From the NCBI GenBank assembly GCA_021646405.1, contig SOER01000026.1:1-45050 (forward strand): a stretch of DNA of 45,050 nt, read 5' to 3'. This DNA comes from Candidatus Loosdrechtia aerotolerans. Lineage in GTDB: Bacteria; Planctomycetota; Brocadiia; Brocadiales; Brocadiaceae. Under the pieces are notes generated by a model that worked only from the letters and a program-made list of their open reading frames with translations, was not told the origin of the DNA and ran no database searches. Below, piece by piece: positions 1,618 to 44,995 of this stretch. The position numbers and the translations under genes are program-made. Each line of letters opens with the position of its first letter. Position 1 is the first letter of the stretch.

Positions 1618-3195
1618 ATGAAGCAGAAAAGGGAATTAGTTATCTCCAGAACTGATTTTGATGCTGTTATTTTTGACCTTGATGGGGTGGTTACCGATAC
1701 TGCCTCTGTTCATGCGAAGGCATGGAAAAAGTTGTTTGATGACTTTTTATCCCGCTATGCTGCCCACCATCCCGATATACCTTCCGAGCCTTTTGATATT
1801 GATACAGATTACCGCCTTTACGTTGACGGCAAACCGCGCCTTGACGGTGTGAGAAGTTTCCTTGTATCGAGAGGCATTCACCTGCCCGAGGGCCGGTCAG
1901 ATGACCCGGCGGATACAGAGACTATCCACGGTCTGGGCAAACGGAAGAATGAGTATTTTCAGAAATACATACAGGAGCAGGGTGTTGACGTGTATGAATC
2001 GACCGTGGATTTTATCCATAATTTAAAAAAACACGGTTTTAAGACAGCAGTCATATCCTCCAGTAAAAACTGCGCCACGATTCTTGATTCGGTGAATCTC
2101 GCTGATCTTTTTGATGTGAGGGTAGACGGTGTTGATTCGGAGACCCTTGGTATTCCAGGGAAACCGGCACCGGATATATTTAATGAGGCTGCACGGCAAT
2201 TAAAGGTAAAACCGGAACGGGCCATTGTGGTTGAGGATTCCATTTCCGGTGTTCAGGCCGGGCGTGCAGGTAAGTTTAGGGTTGTGATAGGGGTAAACCG
2301 TAAAGGAGATTGGGACTCTTTGCTGAAAAACGGGGCTAATATGGCTGTTGATGACCTTTCCGGGATTGATATTATAAATGACATTGAAACAGAGGGGGCA
2401 TTGCCCCGGGCACTGGATAGTTTTGAAGAAATTGCCCGTCAGGCCAGGGGAAAACGCATGGCGGTATTTCTTGACTACGACGGAACGCTGACACCGATAG
2501 CTGATACACCGGATAAGGCGATTATGTCGGAGGATATGCGACAGGCTGTTGTTGCACTATCCAAACATTGCATCGTAGGAATTATCAGCGGCCGTGATTT
2601 GAAAGATGTCCGCCGTATGATAAATATCGATTCTATCGTCTATGCAGGCAGTCATGGCTTTGATATAGCCGGGCCAGAAGGTATGCATGCGGAAAGCCAG
2701 GTAGGGACAGAGTTTCTGCCTGTCCTTGATAAGGCAGAGCAGGAGCTTTCCCGGACGCTTAGTCCGATCAAAGGGGTACTTGTGGAACGAAAGAAATTTG
2801 CCATTGCCGTTCATTACCGGCTTGCAGCACCGGAGCATACAGATGAGATTGAAAAAGTTATAGATAAAGTTGCGGCAGCGCATCCTGAGCTTCGGAAAAC
2901 ATACGGTAAGAAAATCTTTGAACTCCAGCCCGATATTGAATGGCATAAAGGGAAGGCATTGCTTTCACTCCTTGCAGCCCTTAACCTCGACAGCGATGAT
3001 GTTCTGCCGGTTTATATAGGTGACGATGTAACCGATGAAGATGCCTTAAGGGTACTTAAGGGCAGAGGAATTGGGATTGCCGTCCAGGACGAACCTTACG
3101 AAACCGCCGCCTCTTACAGCCTGAGGAATCCCGATGAGGTCAGAGAATTCCTGCTTGAATTGATTCCTATTTGTAAAGGAGGACAGAATGAATAA
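1618..3195 (+). CDS. Beta-phosphoglucomutase-like HAD domain fused to trehalose-phosphatase
   Basis: This is a cytoplasmic two-domain protein of 525 residues. Residues ~10-245 are a beta-phosphoglucomutase-type HAD domain (FDLDGVVTDT, D20/D22; SSSKNC; GKPAPDIF; VEDSISG). Residues ~275-515 are a trehalose-6-phosphatase (OtsB-type) HAD domain (LDYDGTLTPI, D286/D288; GIISGRDL; HGFDIAGPEG; YIGDDVTDEDA). An upstream ATG at 1603 is in frame, but AAGGAGGTG (1606-1614) sits just before the ATG at 1618, which is the likely start. The stop overlaps the start of the GH65 gene by 8 bases, implying translational coupling. The domain order HAD-OtsB followed by GH65 matches the three-domain OtsB1 protein of mycobacteria, here split into two genes. 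The role is probably trehalose or other alpha-glucoside turnover to glucose 6-phosphate. Confidence 0.85.
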   Translation: MKQKRELVISRTDFDAVIFDLDGVVTDTASVHAKAWKKLFDDFLSRYAAHHPDIPSEPFDIDTDYRLYVDGKPRLDGVRSFLVSRGIHLPEGRSDDPADTETIHGLGKRKNEYFQKYIQEQGVDVYESTVDFIHNLKKHGFKTAVISSSKNCATILDSVNLADLFDVRVDGVDSETLGIPGKPAPDIFNEAARQLKVKPERAIVVEDSISGVQAGRAGKFRVVIGVNRKGDWDSLLKNGANMAVDDLSGIDIINDIETEGALPRALDSFEEIARQARGKRMAVFLDYDGTLTPIADTPDKAIMSEDMRQAVVALSKHCIVGIISGRDLKDVRRMINIDSIVYAGSHGFDIAGPEGMHAESQVGTEFLPVLDKAEQELSRTLSPIKGVLVERKKFAIAVHYRLAAPEHTDEIEKVIDKVAAAHPELRKTYGKKIFELQPDIEWHKGKALLSLLAALNLDSDDVLPVYIGDDVTDEDALRVLKGRGIGIAVQDEPYETAASYSLRNPDEVREFLLELIPICKGGQNE

Positions 3196-5581
3196 CTGGA
3201 TACTAGCGTACGATGGCTTTGATCCCGAAACAGAGAACTTACGGGAGGCACTCTGTACACTGGGAAACGGATATTTTGCTACCAGGGGAGCGGCATCGGA
3301 AGCTGAAGCCGGCGAGATACATTATCCCGGTACATATCTGGCCGGGGGATACAATCGCCTGAAAACAGAAATCGCAGGCCGTGTGGTCGAAAACGAAGAT
3401 CTTGTGAACATGCCCAACTGGCTTGTCCTTACGTTCAGGCTGGAAGGTGGTAACTGGTTTAATCTGATGTCGGTAGATATACTTTCCTATAAACAGGAAC
3501 TTGACATAAAGCGTGGCGTCCTCATGCGTACCGTCAGATTCAGGGATAAACAAAAGAAGGAGACTACCGTTACCAGTCAGCGAATAGTCCATATGGACAA
3601 TATGCACCTGGCTGCACTGATGACTACCATTACACCGGAAAACTGGTCGGGGCGTATAGAGATACGTTCGGCACTTGACGGGACGGTCATAAATGCCGGG
3701 GTTGAGCGGTATAAACAACTGAATAGCAAACACCTTGAGCCTTTGAAGACGGGGACGTTCGATAAAGACGGCATATATTTGCTGGTGCAGACCAATCAGT
3801 CAAATATCCGTATTGCCGAGGCGGCCAGAACCCGCATATACAGAGGCAACGAAGAGACTGATACAGAAAGAAATATTTTTGAAGAATCCGGGCATATTGC
3901 GCAGGATATTGTCGTGTCAGACGCAAAACAGGGCGAACCTTTGAGGGTAGAAAAGATCGTCTCTTTCTATACATCCAGGGACTTTGCCATCTCGGAACCG
4001 GTGCTTGATGCTATCGAGGTCGTCAGGCTTGCAGACGATTTTGGACAGCTCTTTGAGAGTCATATCATGGAATGGGATCATCTGTGGGACAGGTGTGATA
4101 TCCAGGTATCGGACAGCGGTCGCAGCCAGATGGTTCTCAGGTTGCACATCTTCCATCTGCTCCAGACCGTCTCAAGAAATTCTATTGATCTTGATATAGG
4201 TATACCCGCAAGGGGTTGGCACGGTGAGGCGTACAGGGGGCATATATTCTGGGATGAGCTCTTTATTTTCCCTTACCTTAATCTGAGGATTCCTGTTCTG
4301 ACCCGATCCCTGCTCCTTTACCGTTACAGAAGGTTGGACAAAGCCCGTATGGCAGCAAGAGAGGAAGGATTCAGAGGGGCTTTGTTTCCGTGGCAGAGCG
4401 GCAGCAACGGCAGGGAAGAAACGCAGAAGCTCCATCTGAATCCCAAATCGGGCCGATGGCTTCCGGATAACACACATTTACAGCGTCATGTCAATGCCGC
4501 TATTGCGTATAACGTCTGGCAGTATTTTAAAATAACAGGCGATATGGAATTTATGGCCACGTACGGCACGGAGATTATCTTAGAAATCGCCAGGTTTTTC
4601 GCAAGTATTACCTCATATAACGAGGAGATTGGCCGCTACGAAATTCGCGGTGTAATTGGTCCCGACGAATACCATGATCAATATCCGGATGCGGAGAACC
4701 CCGGACTTAACAATAATGTATACACAAACGTCATGAGCGTCTGGGTACTCTGCACCGCTGTCAGGGCCCTTGAGATCCTGCCGCCTGAAAGACGAAGCGA
4801 TCTGCGGGAGACGATCGGGCTGAATGAGTCAGAGATCGAACTCTGGCGGGATATAATCCATAAGATGCGGATTGTTTTTCATGGTGATGGTATCATTAGC
4901 CAGTTTGAGGGGTATGACAACCTGATGGAGTTCGATTGGGAGGGATATAGGCAAAAATACGGAGATATACGCCGTCTTGACCGTATACTCGAGGCAGAAG
5001 GGGATAGTGCAAACCGTTATAAGGTCTCGAAACAGGCCGATGTGTTGATGCTCTTTTATCTCTTTTCTTCAGAAGAACTGCATGAGCTCTTTACTCAAAT
5101 GGGTTATGATTTTGACCCACAGATCATGCCGAAGAACATAGAGTATTACCTGGAACGGAGTTCCCATGGCTCGACATTGAGCAACGTTGTTCATTCATGG
5201 GTCCTGGCACGGTCAGATCGGTTTCGTTCCTGGAAACTTTTCAATATGGCACTGGAAAGTGATATATTTGACATCCAGGGGGGGACGACACATGAAGGCA
5301 TCCATTTAGGTGCAATGGCAGGGACAGTGGATATTATTCAGCGATGTTATACAGGAATGGAGTTTAAGGATGATGTCGTTTATTTCAATCCGAGGATACC
5401 GGAAGGGCTGGGCAAACTGGTCATAAGAATTAAACACAGGGGAAATTGGCTTGATGTGATTACAACACCTGAGTCAATGACCATTGCATCAAGCAAGTAC
5501 AAGTTACAGGCAACGAGAGTGGGATTCCGGGATAAGGTGTATGAATTAAGACCAGGCGATACCTTGAAGTTTGATGTGTAG
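3188..5581 (+). CDS. Glycoside hydrolase family 65 disaccharide phosphorylase
   Basis: This is a 797-residue GH65 enzyme of the maltose/trehalose/kojibiose phosphorylase type, which splits an alpha-glucoside with phosphate into beta-glucose 1-phosphate and the other sugar. Visible family marks are the N-terminal GNGYFATRGA motif, RGHIFWDELFIFPYL, the GPDEYHD motif with the general-acid glutamate E494, the KQADV motif, and the SSHGSTLSNVVHS phosphate-binding loop near the C-terminus. AAAGGAGG (3176-3183) precedes the ATG, which overlaps the upstream stop. The beta-glucose 1-phosphate made would be the substrate of the upstream HAD domain. The sugar specificity cannot be read from the sequence; the fused trehalose-phosphatase upstream hints at trehalose or trehalose 6-phosphate. 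Confidence 0.9.
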   Translation: MNNWILAYDGFDPETENLREALCTLGNGYFATRGAASEAEAGEIHYPGTYLAGGYNRLKTEIAGRVVENEDLVNMPNWLVLTFRLEGGNWFNLMSVDILSYKQELDIKRGVLMRTVRFRDKQKKETTVTSQRIVHMDNMHLAALMTTITPENWSGRIEIRSALDGTVINAGVERYKQLNSKHLEPLKTGTFDKDGIYLLVQTNQSNIRIAEAARTRIYRGNEETDTERNIFEESGHIAQDIVVSDAKQGEPLRVEKIVSFYTSRDFAISEPVLDAIEVVRLADDFGQLFESHIMEWDHLWDRCDIQVSDSGRSQMVLRLHIFHLLQTVSRNSIDLDIGIPARGWHGEAYRGHIFWDELFIFPYLNLRIPVLTRSLLLYRYRRLDKARMAAREEGFRGALFPWQSGSNGREETQKLHLNPKSGRWLPDNTHLQRHVNAAIAYNVWQYFKITGDMEFMATYGTEIILEIARFFASITSYNEEIGRYEIRGVIGPDEYHDQYPDAENPGLNNNVYTNVMSVWVLCTAVRALEILPPERRSDLRETIGLNESEIELWRDIIHKMRIVFHGDGIISQFEGYDNLMEFDWEGYRQKYGDIRRLDRILEAEGDSANRYKVSKQADVLMLFYLFSSEELHELFTQMGYDFDPQIMPKNIEYYLERSSHGSTLSNVVHSWVLARSDRFRSWKLFNMALESDIFDIQGGTTHEGIHLGAMAGTVDIIQRCYTGMEFKDDVVYFNPRIPEGLGKLVIRIKHRGNWLDVITTPESMTIASSKYKLQATRVGFRDKVYELRPGDTLKFDV

Positions 5582-7319: not shown

Positions 7320-8182
7320 TAGTTAACAGCAGTTGAAACCGAACAAATAAGAAACACACCGAGAGAGTACTTCAGAAGTTCTCTGAGCCATAGAGGCAAC
7401 AAAGCCATTGAACGATCGAATTAACGTCTTAAGAGTTTTCCAACAGATATTATAGGAAAGGGCTTTTTTCGCCCATCGAATCCATTGTTCGGCAGCATTC
7501 ATCTTTGGACTATGAGAAGGTAAATGATGTATATGAATATCGGTTTCTTTCCCCGTCTGTTTCGTAATAGTACCCCGGTGATAAGGTGCATTATCCCAAA
7601 TAGCATCAATATGATAGCCTGGCAAACAAGCACGGATTTTCTTCAGAAATCGAGCAGTGTTTTCTTGCGCAAATACCGTCGTGCTGTATGGGGATGAACC
7701 GTTTTCCCAAATACCTTTTTTATATAAGCGGCCACACTCTTACCGCTCCAGCGACCAGTTTTTATCCCACTCTGGCGTGGAGGCTTCTGTACTGCCTGAT
7801 ACAAGACCTCAAATTCCTCTTTACTCAGATATGGTTCTTGAGGGCTTTTGAACTCTGGCACCAAACCCTCTATTCCTTTCTGATTAAAACTATGCACCCA
7901 CTCACTTACTGTTTGACGCCTCCGGTGGATTTGCCCGGCAACACTCTGTACCGATTTCCCGGAGGCAATAAGTGCCAATGCCAGATATCGTTCTCTCAAA
8001 CGCTTGTTTTCAGTAGCAATGCTTTTCTGAAGCAGGGTTTCGGTTGTTTCTCCCCATTTCGGATCCAATTGAAGCATAGGATACCTCCTCTTATAACTTG
8101 TTTACAAACTTTCATAACTTCCTTACAGAAGTATCCTTTTAAACAATTTTATTTCCTGTTCGGTTTCAACTGCTGTTAACTA
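7320..8182 (-). mobile_element. IS630-type insertion element, internally deleted
   Basis: The 863-bp element has 26-bp perfect terminal inverted repeats (7320-7345 and 8157-8182, beginning TAGTTAACAGCAGTTGAAAC) and is flanked by TA at 7318-7319 and 8183-8184. The related module at 22163-22164 carries a single TA at the same place, so TA target duplication can be read directly. This is the IS630/Tc1-mariner signature. It carries one decayed transposase gene on the minus strand. Intact relatives are usually 1.0-1.2 kb, consistent with an internal deletion. Confidence 0.9.
7323..8077 (-). pseudogene. IS630-family transposase, broken by internal deletion and frame change
   Basis: The 5' part (8077-7643, 144 residues) is the helix-turn-helix and winged-helix DNA-binding region: LALIASGKSVQSVAGQIHRR, then GRWSGKSVAAYIKKVFGKTV, ending at a stop. 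GAGGAGG precedes its ATG. The 3' part in another frame (about 7690-7323) encodes the end of the DDE domain: second Asp in IWDNAPYHRG and the catalytic Glu in SPKMNAAEQWIRWAKK. The segment between the winged helix and the second Asp, which should carry the first catalytic Asp (usually DEAHF-like), is missing. The two halves cannot form a working enzyme even with frameshifting. The C-terminus reads into the terminal inverted repeat. Confidence 0.8.
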
Positions 8183-22306: not shown

Positions 22307-24001
22307 CTAATTATTCTTTTTTTGTGCAGTTTGTAAGATATGGTAAATAGCAAATTCCGACTCTGCTTCAACATCCATCCCTTTATCTTTGTATAGCAAG
22401 CCTAAGTTTTTGTGGGTTTCTCTATCATTTGCATCGATGTCCAGAACCTTTTTATATGCTTCAACAGCTTCATCTGTCTTCCCTGTCTTTTGGTAAACTA
22501 ATCCAAGATTATAATAGGCATCTGCAAAAGTAGGATTAATTTTTACGGCTTTCTCCCACTGGATGAGGGCTGCCGCATACATACTTTTCCTGACGTAGGC
22601 ATTACCCAGTTGGTAATAAAATTCTGCACGGTCCGGATAGGTATCTGTAAGCTTTTTCCATGTTTGTATGGTCTTATCTATAAACCCTTTCCTATCATAA
22701 GCATCTGCGAGGCTGGTCAGGGCATCAAAATCTCCCGGTTTAATCTCAGTGACTTTATTCCACATGGAGATAGCGGAATCCAGATTTCCCTGATTATAGT
22801 ATGCTACTCCTAAGTTAAAATATGCATCGGCATTACGGGGGTCTAATTCGATAACCTTCTTCCATGCTGCCGTAGAGACATCGTGCCTTCCTTGAATGGC
22901 ATTAATTTTTGCATAATTGTAGTATGCCTCTGCAGAAGCAGGGTCTGCTGTAATTGCTTTTTTATATTCAGACAATGCTTTATCAAGCATGTTGTTTTCC
23001 GCATAAATCTTTCCCAGGAGGAAATGTGCCTCAGCAATCTCCGGATTTAATTTGACTGCCTGTTTTAAAGAGGCCACAGCATCTGTGAAGTTACCCTCTG
23101 CATAGCAAGCGAATCCAAGATTATAATGTGCTTCCGCAAAATCTGGTTCCAGTTCGAGCGCTTTTTTAAAGGAATCTGCTGCATCTTTCAGGTTATTTTT
23201 TTTTGTGAGGGCAATTCCTAAGTTATTATAAGCATCTGTGTAATTATTATTTAATCTGACTGCAGTTCTGTGTTGATCGATGGATTCCTCAAAAGATCCC
23301 AGTTTGTAATATAATAAGCCAAGGTAATTATGTGCTTCTGCATCGTGAGGGTCCTGTTCAATGGCCTTTTTGAACTCACGTATAGATTTATCCATGGATT
23401 TTTCTGTATAATAGATCAATCCCAGGGTGAAGTGGGCATCAGCGTTGTTTGGGTCAAGTGTAATCGATTTTTCAATATGGTGAATCCCTTCATCAATCAT
23501 ATTTTCTTTATAATAAAGTACCCCAATATCATAATGTGCATCAGCCATTGACGGATTTAATCCAAGACAATTTTTTAATGCGGAAAGGGATTCTGAGAGC
23601 ATATTCTTGTCGTTGTATGCCAAACCGAGGTCATGGTATGCCTCTGCTCTCTTAACACTGTCAGTTGGTTTGTAGTAAGAAATAGCGGCCAGTAATGATG
23701 AAATTGCTTCATCTAAGGTACCATTCTCATACAACACCTTTCCCAGATAATGGTGTGATTCTGCATCATGTGGCAATTCCCCTGTTGCAAGCCTCAACGC
23801 CTCCAGGGCCTCATCAGTCATTCCCTTTTCAAAGTAAGAAATGCCGCGTAATTTATGTTGTTCCGGTGTGTTTTTGCTGAGCGCCGTACCGGAATGTTCC
23901 TTTTCTTCTGTATATAACGTTTTTGTATAATGAGGGGTTCTGCAGGCAACCGGAATCGTAACGAATAAGGGGAGTATCCAGATTAGGTTCTTTGTATTCA
24001 T
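22307..24001 (-). CDS. Exported TPR-repeat protein
   Basis: This 564-residue protein has an N-terminal hydrophobic segment (LIWILPLFVTIPVACRT), probably a signal peptide; the Cys could be a lipid anchor, but the preceding residues (PVA) fit the lipobox poorly. From residue ~50 to the end it is an unbroken series of about 14 tetratricopeptide repeats of 34 residues (repeated A-x-YNLG-x-x-Y and A-I-x-x-x-KKA-x-x-x-P patterns), forming a superhelical scaffold for protein partners. The last residues are QKKNN. It probably works in the periplasm as an assembly factor. A candidate promoter is on the minus strand at 24149-24177. Confidence 0.85.
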   Translation of the reverse strand: MNTKNLIWILPLFVTIPVACRTPHYTKTLYTEEKEHSGTALSKNTPEQHKLRGISYFEKGMTDEALEALRLATGELPHDAESHHYLGKVLYENGTLDEAISSLLAAISYYKPTDSVKRAEAYHDLGLAYNDKNMLSESLSALKNCLGLNPSMADAHYDIGVLYYKENMIDEGIHHIEKSITLDPNNADAHFTLGLIYYTEKSMDKSIREFKKAIEQDPHDAEAHNYLGLLYYKLGSFEESIDQHRTAVRLNNNYTDAYNNLGIALTKKNNLKDAADSFKKALELEPDFAEAHYNLGFACYAEGNFTDAVASLKQAVKLNPEIAEAHFLLGKIYAENNMLDKALSEYKKAITADPASAEAYYNYAKINAIQGRHDVSTAAWKKVIELDPRNADAYFNLGVAYYNQGNLDSAISMWNKVTEIKPGDFDALTSLADAYDRKGFIDKTIQTWKKLTDTYPDRAEFYYQLGNAYVRKSMYAAALIQWEKAVKINPTFADAYYNLGLVYQKTGKTDEAVEAYKKVLDIDANDRETHKNLGLLYKDKGMDVEAESEFAIYHILQTAQKKNN

Positions 24002-24222: not shown

Positions 24223-25083
24223 TTACTTTAATCTAAGGGCTTTAAGAAAATCCTTTTTCTTCTCGTTTTTCGCCCTGATTATATGTTCCCTGTCTTTTGG
24301 TGCATACGATTCTAAGCACTTATTATATTTATTCCAGATATTTTTTAAATGGGTTAATGATTCTGCAGATTGAATCTTGCCAATAAGCCCGGCTGGTGGA
24401 ATTATCCTATCACTGTCAACAGGCAGAGGATCGATAGAGTCCTTTTCTACCATTTGTGAGGTGTCTTCTTTTCTTCCTTCATGTACCAGCCCTGAACTTT
24501 TTTTCCTCCAGTATTTTTTCCTTTTGCCGTCTCTGTCAGTATCCCAATATGTTTCAGCATACTGTTCTTTCCAGGTATGTATAAAAGAAGGTTTCCATAG
24601 TTCCAGGCTGATACCTATGCCTTTGCATAATCTCATGAGGGCGTTGCTTTTTGCGCCTTCACAGGCATCGCCCCATGTCATATAAGAATTATCAGGATGA
24701 TAATCCTGCTCTCCGATTGCAAATCCGGCCAACTTCCCCTGAATAATAAGATAGAATCCCCATACCAGATAATCTCCGTTTTGTTTTGGCATTCCCTGCG
24801 GTACAATTGCCCAGTTGAGATTGAACGCCTCTTTGAGTCTCGCTACGTATTCAACCCACGGCAGATAGATCAGGCCGTCCGGGCGGATCTCAATATCATG
24901 TTCGTTTACGGGTCGGAATAGGGCGTGCCTCTGTTGTTCGGTAAGCTCTATTGTTCCGCATGTAGGAATCAGTTTTTCAATCTCTTTATCAAAATCATTA
25001 AGCTGTATTTTTGGTGTGGGCGCTATTTCCGATAGAATGTTTTCATCAATTTTTTGAGTCATATTTTGTATCTTCTTACTCAT
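24223..25083 (-). CDS. Mgm101/Rad52-like single-strand annealing protein (putative)
   Basis: This 286-residue soluble protein starts best at the ATG at 25083, which has GAGAAGGA ahead of it; an upstream TTG would add seven residues. The core, residues ~70-180, contains AFNLNWAIVPQG, then LIIQGKLAGFAIGEQDYH, GDACEGAKSNALMRLCKGIG and ISLELWKPSFIHTWKEQY, followed by a basic GKRKKYWRKK. This order (GRLVS-like strand, GEQDY, EGxKSNALMRxCKxLGI, ELWxPxFI) is what I remember of fungal Mgm101, the mitochondrial DNA recombination protein with a Rad52-related fold. The C-terminal ~50 residues (LTHLKNIWNKYNK) resemble tails of phage annealing proteins. There is no phage gene next to it. A DNA annealing or repair role is inferred. 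Confidence 0.65.
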   Translation of the reverse strand: MSKKIQNMTQKIDENILSEIAPTPKIQLNDFDKEIEKLIPTCGTIELTEQQRHALFRPVNEHDIEIRPDGLIYLPWVEYVARLKEAFNLNWAIVPQGMPKQNGDYLVWGFYLIIQGKLAGFAIGEQDYHPDNSYMTWGDACEGAKSNALMRLCKGIGISLELWKPSFIHTWKEQYAETYWDTDRDGKRKKYWRKKSSGLVHEGRKEDTSQMVEKDSIDPLPVDSDRIIPPAGLIGKIQSAESLTHLKNIWNKYNKCLESYAPKDREHIIRAKNEKKKDFLKALRLK

Positions 25084-25104: not shown

Positions 25105-25464
25105 TGGAATTTATTTGTAATGAGGATTGGTGTCCATGATCCGTAGCAGGGATGACCTTCTCTCCTCAGAGACACCGCCTCTTTTATCACAGTTATTTTT
25201 TAAAACTTGCCTGTTGACATACAGTTATAACAAATATAATACCAATTTGGTTTCATAAAAAATTTTTTACTCTCTGTTATTACCATTGATTATTTTGGTG
25301 TAAATTCTCATTTATAATTTGCGGAGATTGTCCGACTGAGCTCACGACGAAGCCTGCGTAAATCTGCGTCCTATTCCTTGGATGCCAAATAAGTATTGAA
25401 TGCAACTAAACCATGTAGTAAAATTAACCGGGTTACCTGAAAAGATAAAACCAGAGGGATGATT
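25105..25464. other. Intergenic region and leuA leader
   Basis: No gene is seen. It contains the leuA promoter (25214-25242) and a leader of about 215 bases. I see no T-box motif and no leucine-rich leader peptide. AGAGGG (25453-25458) is the leuA ribosome binding site and favours the ATG at 25465 over the one at 25459. Confidence 0.6.
25214..25242 (+). promoter_or_regulatory. Sigma70-type promoter ahead of leuA
   Basis: TTGACA (25214-25219), a 17-base spacer and TAATAC (25237-25242); TATAAT at 25235-25240 is an alternative -10 with a 15-base spacer. Confidence 0.65.
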
Positions 25465-27015
25465 ATGGATAACAATATTACTATTTTCGATACGACTCTC
25501 CGCGATGGCGAGCAGTCGCCGGGTGCTAGTCTGGATATTCATGAGAAGGTCCAGATTGCACGGCAATTGGCCCTGCTAAATGTAGACGTTATTGAGGCTG
25601 GGTTTCCGGTAACATCATCTGGTGATTTCGAATCTGTGAAGCGGATTGCTCAGGAAATACGCGGCGTTTCTGTTGCAGGTCTTGCCCGTGCTGTTGAAAA
25701 GGATATTGATAGTGCTGCAAAGGCGCTGGAAAAGGCTGAAAAACCCCGGATTCATATCTTTTTAGCAACCTCTGAGATACATAGAAAATACAAGCTGCTT
25801 AAGGCAAAGGAAGAAATTATTCATCTGGCAGTTAAGGGGGTTACGTATGCGAGAAAGTTTGTGGATGATGTAGAGTTCTCACCTGAAGATGCATCACGAA
25901 CGGAACTGGATTTTCTTATTCAGGTGGTAGAGGCGGTTATCGACGCTGGTGCAAAGACAGTAAACATCCCGGATACAGTAGGTTATGCCATACCCGATCA
26001 GTATGAATCCCTTATCCGCGGATTAAAGGAGAATGTGAAGAATATTGAGAGGGCGGTAATCAGTGTACATTGTCATAATGACCTTGGCCTTGCAGTTGCC
26101 AATTCTCTTGCTGCGGTAAAGGCAGGTGCCCAGCAGATAGAATGTACCATCAATGGTATTGGTGAAAGGGCAGGAAATGCGGCGTTAGAAGAGGTTGTTA
26201 TGGCTATTAAGACGCGGCACGATTTTTATCGCTGTTCTACACGTATCCATACAAGAGAATTGATTGCAACAAGCAAGCTGGTGAGTACCTTAACGGGACT
26301 GCGGGTGCAGAGGAACAAGGCTATTGTTGGAGAGAATGCCTTTGCGCATCAATCGGGGGTACATCAGGATGGGGTACTGAAAGAACGTACAACGTATGAA
26401 ATAATGAGTCCCGAAGACGTCGGACATCTGAAGACAAAAATTGTGCTCGGCAAATTATCGGGACGACATGCCCTCAAGAACCGAATCAGAGAATTAGGAT
26501 ATGAGCTGTCTGAAGAAGAATTTGAACGGGCCTTTGAAGAGTTTAAAAGTATTGCAGATAAGAAAAAAGAGATATTTGATGAAGATATTGAGGCCATTAT
26601 CGGAATAGAAAAAATGGAGGTCCCTACTATCTTTCAGTTAGTGAGCCTCAGTATTAGCTGCGGGCCAAATGTGGTGCCAACTGCGGGTGTGCGGCTAAAG
26701 TTACATGACGGCCGTATAGTAGATAACGCTACTATCGGCGATGGTCCTATTGATGCACTTTTTAAGGCTATTGACCTGTCAACCGGAATCCCTGGTAAGC
26801 TGCGGGATTATAATATTCAGGCTGTTACCAGTGGAAAGGATGCTATGGGCGAGGTTCACGTACGTGTTGATATCGATGGTAAGATTATCGGTGGGCGTGC
26901 TATAAGTACCGATATCATTGAAGCCAGTGCAAAAGCTTATTTAAATACCATAAATAAAGTTGCTGCAACTGATCCGAAATATACCGTGTATCAACAGCGT
27001 GTTACCGGGTTATAG
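25465..27015 (+). CDS. leuA: 2-isopropylmalate synthase
   Basis: First step of leucine synthesis: acetyl-CoA and 2-ketoisovalerate give 2-isopropylmalate. The 516-residue protein has the N-terminal FDTTLRDGEQSPGASL active-site strand, ELDFLIQVVEAVIDAGAKTV, the SVHCHNDLGLAVANSLAA metal-binding motif, NGIGERAGNAALEEVVMA and a C-terminal regulatory domain (~390-516, DGRIVDNATIGDGPIDALF) that in relatives binds leucine for feedback inhibition. Length is normal for the bacterial enzyme. It begins a three-gene plus-strand run with aroDE and aroK. leuB, leuC and leuD are not in the window. Confidence 0.93.
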   Translation: MDNNITIFDTTLRDGEQSPGASLDIHEKVQIARQLALLNVDVIEAGFPVTSSGDFESVKRIAQEIRGVSVAGLARAVEKDIDSAAKALEKAEKPRIHIFLATSEIHRKYKLLKAKEEIIHLAVKGVTYARKFVDDVEFSPEDASRTELDFLIQVVEAVIDAGAKTVNIPDTVGYAIPDQYESLIRGLKENVKNIERAVISVHCHNDLGLAVANSLAAVKAGAQQIECTINGIGERAGNAALEEVVMAIKTRHDFYRCSTRIHTRELIATSKLVSTLTGLRVQRNKAIVGENAFAHQSGVHQDGVLKERTTYEIMSPEDVGHLKTKIVLGKLSGRHALKNRIRELGYELSEEEFERAFEEFKSIADKKKEIFDEDIEAIIGIEKMEVPTIFQLVSLSISCGPNVVPTAGVRLKLHDGRIVDNATIGDGPIDALFKAIDLSTGIPGKLRDYNIQAVTSGKDAMGEVHVRVDIDGKIIGGRAISTDIIEASAKAYLNTINKVAATDPKYTVYQQRVTGL

Positions 27016-44151: not shown

Positions 44152-44466
44152 ATGTATATGAAGAAACAACGAAAAAGTCATTCAGGTCAGGAGAAAGTGA
44201 AAATATTGCGTCGTCATTTTGTTGATCAGGTACCGGTATCAGACCTTTGTGATGAATACGGTCTTCATCCTTCGGTGTTTTATCGTTGGCAGAAGATATT
44301 GTTTGAAAATGGGGCATCGGCTTTTGAGTTACCAAATGGTGCCGGAGAGAGAAAAAGGGATGAGAAGGTAAAGAAATTGGAAGAGAAATTGGCACATAAG
44401 AATGAAGTCATAGCCGAGATTATGTTTGATCATGTGAAATTAAAAAAAAGTCTTGGGGAGGCTTGA
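44152..44466 (+). CDS. IS3-family transposase OrfA (helix-turn-helix)
   Basis: This 104-residue protein begins MYMKKQRKSHSGQEKVKILR and has the helix-turn-helix VPVSDLCDEYGLHPSVFYRW, followed by a leucine-zipper-like segment (KKLEEKLAHKNEVIAEIMFD) and the end KLKKSLGEA. It is the DNA-binding part of the IS3-type transposase, normally fused to OrfB by programmed frameshifting. An AGGAGG (44144-44149) lies ahead. It seems intact, but its partner is broken. Confidence 0.85.
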   Translation: MYMKKQRKSHSGQEKVKILRRHFVDQVPVSDLCDEYGLHPSVFYRWQKILFENGASAFELPNGAGERKRDEKVKKLEEKLAHKNEVIAEIMFDHVKLKKSLGEA

Positions 44467-44995
44467 AAGCGGAGGCTGGAACAGGAAGCCATCTAGGAAG
44501 GGAACTGGTTTTTGCCAGCCGCTGGAGCCTCACGAGCATTGACATATTGATATTTCCTATCTGAACATTTGTGGTACCTTTTACTATCAGTGCAGTATTC
44601 TGGATGGTTGCAGTCGTTTTATTGTTCATTGGGAGATACGGGAAACCATGACAGAAGGCGATGTGGAAACTATTCTTCAGCGTGCACGGGAGAAATTTCC
44701 TGAGGCAAAGCCAGGAATTATTTCGGATAATGGCCCACAGTTTGTTGCCAGAGATTTTAAAGAATTTATTCGCCTTTGTGGTATGACACACGTAAAGACA
44801 TCACCGTATTATCCACAAAGCAATGGGAAGATAGAACGGTGGCACAAATTACTCAAAAGCGAGTGTATTCGCCCTAAGGCACCCCTTAGTGTGGATGATG
44901 CAAGAGGGATCGTGGAAGGTTTTGTGGATTATTATAATACTACCAGTCGGCGAAACGGAAGTGGGCTCTGCTGGAGAACAACCCACCAGGGATAG
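44467..44995 (+). pseudogene. IS3-family transposase OrfB, deleted and interrupted
   Basis: The integrase core is recognisable: HIDISYLNICGTFYYQCSIL with the first Asp, IISDNGPQFVARDFKEF with the second, and PQSNGKIERWHKLLKSE with the Glu. Damage is seen in three places. The N-terminal ~100 residues that should follow OrfA are missing: the frame passes from LKKSLGE straight to WNRKPSRKGTGF. An in-frame TGA at 44540-44542 stands where a Trp is expected. The C-terminal YYNTVRLHSAIGY-type end is replaced by YYNTTSRRNGSGL. It is inactive. Confidence 0.75.

Follow-up and report, generated by a model that had tools for sequence, protein, structure and literature searches.

The window, a stretch of 45,050 nucleotides from contig SOER01000026.1 of the anammox bacterium Candidatus Loosdrechtia aerotolerans, carries on its minus strand (24223..25083) a gene for a Mgm101-family single-strand annealing protein of 286 amino acids, whose open reading frame starts with the ATG at 25083 and has GAAGGAAA nearby as ribosome-binding site. 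Its conserved neighbours are a TPR lipoprotein gene on the left (22307..24001, minus strand) and leuA, encoding 2-isopropylmalate synthase, on the right (25459..27015, plus strand). The earlier note had described the gene as a chromosomal, non-phage bacterial member of its family with no phage gene adjacent, and this description stands; the same flanks enclose the gene in two genera. No exonuclease gene lies next to it, and it does not form a two-gene module of the Red or RecET type. Elsewhere in the window, a transposase-like gene at 7323-8077 is split in two ORFs (helix-turn-helix-like and DDE-like, by eye) and is probably a decayed insertion sequence, and two ORFs at the window end (44152-44995) resemble by eye an IS3-type transposase pair.

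The protein displays, in the order described in the earlier note, the motifs GEQDY, EGAKSNALMRLCKGIG and ELWKPSFI followed by the basic Lys/Arg stretch KRKKYWRKK. Indeed, it matches Pfam PF06420 (Mgm101p) with an E-value of 5.2e-40 and 137 bits against a curated cut-off of 27, over profile positions 11-163 of 170 (i.e., most of the profile), and Mgm101p was the single Pfam family found. In addition, a search of PDB sequences matched yeast Mgm101 to residues 53-196 with an E-value of 6.6e-25. These two values exclude a chance match, and the motifs listed in the earlier note are thus real and the family assignment is right. NCBIfam and PHROGs profiles gave nothing significant for the window protein, and PHROGs families likewise gave no match for the member from phage contig L025.

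The Mgm101p core domain, with the beta-beta-beta-alpha arrangement of the ring and DNA-binding core, spans protein residues 44-197 (24493..24954, minus strand) and ends in the basic strand region GKRKKYWRKK (24493..24528, minus strand). Using the yeast numbering of PMC5176325, and the residue roles given for yeast Mgm101 in PMC5176325 and PMC3572067, we compared 44 members of the family. Lys218 was conserved in all 44 (Lys154 in the window protein), Cys217 (Cys153) and the Trp of the basic strand treated as invariant, Trp257 (Trp192), each in 43 of 44, and Tyr139 (Tyr73) and Pro141 (Pro75) each in 39 of 44. Two changes from yeast to the window are conservative (Lys253 to Arg188 and Arg259 to Lys194), and two further positions differ (Cys216 to Leu152 and Lys251 to Gly186). 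Within the 14-member clade to which the window protein belongs, 13 proteins have Leu at the position of Cys216.

The Rad52-type fold proposed in the earlier note is borne out by an AlphaFold2 model, built on an alignment of 36 relatives from the loci found in this analysis, with a mean pLDDT of 87.8 that rises to about 97 in the core. Residues 1-30 are modelled as coil with low confidence and the core begins at about residue 44; within it, DSSP assigns strands at 91-102, 105-114 and 117-127 and a helix at 137-155, and three further helices are predicted at 230-285. These make up an additional C-terminal domain of three helices (residues 225-286; 24226..24411, minus strand), for which similar sequence occurs in the Jettenia, Anaerolineae and phage L014 members. 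In structure comparisons, the cryo-EM structure of yeast Mgm101 (9yi9) ranked first (Z 19.8, rmsd 2.5, 164 residues), followed by the chains of human RAD52 (Z 12.4-12.8, with 130 residues for the value of 12.8) and then by Sak of phage 80a (Z 8.9). Among predicted viral proteins, the best fold match was an unnamed viral protein with 32% identity, and the next ones included Sak3, Rad52-like and Erf phage proteins. Neither a profile match to an unrelated family nor a fold lacking the Rad52-type core, either of which had been named as grounds for dropping the assignment, was found, and the predicted core together with the RAD52 matches places the protein in the Rad52 superfamily.

Compared to yeast Mgm101 (PDB 9yi6-9yia), the window protein thus has in common the core of ~165 residues, with 39% identity on 141 columns, and the key Lys, Cys, Trp, Tyr and Pro residues. 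In contrast, it lacks the long mitochondrial N-terminal region, with neither a targeting sequence nor a long disordered region at its N-terminus, it has the extra C-terminal domain, the first Cys of the yeast CC pair is Leu, and the gene is prokaryotic and chromosomal. The annealing domain of human RAD52 is similar in its core fold but only 12% identical in the structural alignment.

The gene order leuA - Mgm101-family gene - TPR is the same in the window and in Jettenia. The gene lies beside leuA in all three Jettenia genomes examined at the site, with the TPR lipoprotein gene on the other side in two of them, the third stretch ending short of it. An 84-aa ORF lies directly upstream of the Jettenia gene on the same strand (1117-1371 of L003 and 2092-2346 of L005), and it was not found when looked for in the window. 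Four other genomes, namely G001 (same genus as the window), G008, G010 and G015, have the TPR gene and leuA near each other without the Mgm101-family gene. In G001, the closest flanks that match lie about 100 bases apart around the empty site, and tblastn detected no trace of the gene there. As G001, the only other same-genus genome searched, lacks it, the gene is dispensable. Between the window and Jettenia, pS is 0.69 for the gene and 0.73 for the neighbouring leuA, with dS values of 1.8-2.1 and 2.6, respectively, that are near saturation, and the dN/dS of the gene is about 0.09. The gene is under purifying selection with a vertical-like divergence. Because of the same site, the leuA-like divergence and the low dN/dS, our results point to one insertion in the common ancestor of the window genome and Jettenia, after which the gene was passed on vertically, kept by selection and lost in G001; separate acquisitions at this one site are less likely.

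On a larger scale, the family is sparse in the sampled bacteria: 6 of 59 relatives carry it, as do 5 of the 392 phylum genomes searched, all of the latter in this one taxonomic family, and a pattern-limited scan of genome contigs yielded 5 loci. The close relatives in the genome search and in the contig scan are Candidatus Jettenia and Candidatus Brocadia, in line with an anammox origin of the window. The two Brocadia copies are away from the leuA site, one on a contig (L019) that also encodes DUF932, DnaN-like and primase-like DUF3987 proteins and a transposase, and the second shares its contig with a transposase gene. The Anaerolineae copy is near ArdC and RadC genes and the Psychracetigena copy adjoins a RadC gene. 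Note that a sliding-clamp-like protein on L019 (4337-5665), with a weak match to the middle domain of DNA polymerase III beta, may point to a replicon of plasmid or phage type, and that a DUF932 gene is located a short distance upstream of the Mgm101-family gene both in this Brocadia element (L019 6285-7421, Pfam match) and, by eye, in phage contig L039 (4281-5261, DUF932-like).

Scans of uncultivated viral contigs recovered 7, then 37 and then a few more loci, about 38 in total, and the viral contigs examined bear terminases, a portal and integrases; for example, the L025 member (2513-3700 of IMGVR_UViG_3300021061_000099) shares its contig with terminase, portal and integrase genes. In 13 phage members, a PD-(D/E)XK nuclease gene lies at most three genes downstream, mostly as the very next gene, and among 65 proteins encoded downstream of phage Mgm101-family genes, Pfam PDDEXK_1 was detected in 9 and SSB in 2. 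Lambda Red and RecET are arranged in this way, and the pairing with an exonuclease gene is shared with Red-beta, RecT, Erf and Sak. The phage annealing proteins further resemble the window protein in combining a core with a C-terminal helical domain, but they belong to different sequence families and no exonuclease gene adjoins the window gene. One phage exonuclease used as query had no match in the host-family genomes, a weak negative for a single-query search. Neither 50,697 named phages (tblastn with six proteins, i.e., the window protein and phage and bacterial members) nor 72,556 plasmids (tblastn with two proteins) gave a match.

Together, the homology and the predicted fold, the conserved residues, the fixed site, the purifying selection on the gene and the phage relatives with their exonuclease neighbours make it probable that the window encodes a phage-type single-strand annealing protein that was captured by an anammox ancestor and works beside RecO. 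The main home of the family is phages and mobile elements, in which its members are often paired with a PD-(D/E)XK exonuclease that would generate the single-stranded DNA. One copy would have settled alone between the TPR gene and leuA in an ancestor shared by the window genome and Jettenia, then been inherited vertically and kept by selection. By analogy with the solved yeast structures, the core is expected to assemble into a ring or lock-washer, whose basic groove would hold single-stranded DNA and anneal the complementary strand, and the additional helical domain at the C-terminus probably binds a partner, by analogy with the corresponding domain of lambda Red-beta. The resident copy probably anneals strands made by host nucleases in repair or gap filling, alongside RecO. 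A replacement of RecO by the Mgm101-family protein was considered and rejected, since RecO_C occurs in 13 of 13 genomes tested, whether the gene is present or absent.

It is unlikely that the gene is merely the remnant of a prophage or mobile element, i.e., a leftover cargo gene with no host function. The concentration of the family in phages, the two Brocadia copies near transposase genes (one with the DnaN-like, DUF932 and primase-like genes) and the absence from G001 and most relatives would fit such an origin; however, the gene is open at the same site in the window and three Jettenia genomes, its dN/dS and intact predicted fold argue for a function, and no phage gene is left around the window copy. 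Somewhat more doubtful still is a role in the uptake of foreign DNA by natural transformation, annealing incoming single strands instead of those of repair: phage annealing proteins work on short or rather divergent homology (PMC8093625), but no competence gene is linked and nothing in the window indicates uptake.

In unrooted trees of 143 core columns, in which yeast alone represents eukaryotes, the window protein falls in a clade of 14 rows (support 100/100) with the Jettenia, Brocadia, Psychracetigena and Anaerolineae members and phages L012, L013, L043, L048, L053 and L059. Yeast Mgm101 grouped with phages L025 and L039 with moderate support (98/90 in one tree, 93/88 in a second one), and a sister position of yeast to the entire 14-row clade was not rejected (AU p 0.15-0.19). 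The earlier note had supposed that a chromosomal bacterial member could bear on the origin of the mitochondrial protein. This was not supported: the nearest relatives found for the yeast protein are phage proteins, with 54-55% identity for L025 and 48% for L039 against 39% for the window protein, and a clade uniting yeast with no members other than the non-viral bacterial ones was rejected (AU p 6e-18). The bacterial chromosomal gene is therefore not the source of yeast Mgm101. An ancient cellular gene, mostly lost from bacteria and passed to mitochondria via the endosymbiont, is accordingly highly improbable, as the resident copies in two genera that might suggest it stand against that rejected clade, 5 of 392 phylum genomes in one family and the 5 contig loci.

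Taken as a whole, the family remains relevant to where the mitochondrial protein came from, through phages, which are the likely common reservoir. The direction from phage to host is parsimony and not proof, because the tree is unrooted and built on 143 columns. That mitochondrial Mgm101 came from a phage recombination module, and that a separate phage capture gave the anammox chromosomal gene, has in our view about even chances.

Mgm101 was called eukaryotic in a 2016 review, whose list of organisms with the protein comprises fungi, amoebae, slime moulds and some marine animals but no bacteria (PMC5176325), and in a 2024 structural tree of annealing proteins it appears only as a mitochondrial protein outside the first set. 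In the accessible part of the literature, we found no report of a prokaryotic or phage-encoded Mgm101 and no paper combining anammox and Rad52; one paper match for Mgm101 in a mycoplasma was a locus tag only. Automatic Pfam or UniProt annotation may already list prokaryotic or phage Mgm101 proteins. With a phage reservoir 55% identical to the yeast protein, the origin of the mitochondrial recombination protein becomes testable. Phage-like ancestors have been proposed for the RNA polymerase, DNA polymerase and helicase of mitochondria, and Mgm101, if phage-derived, would join them. Moreover, recombineering in unusual bacteria could draw on the untried annealing proteins of this family and on the exonucleases that go with them.
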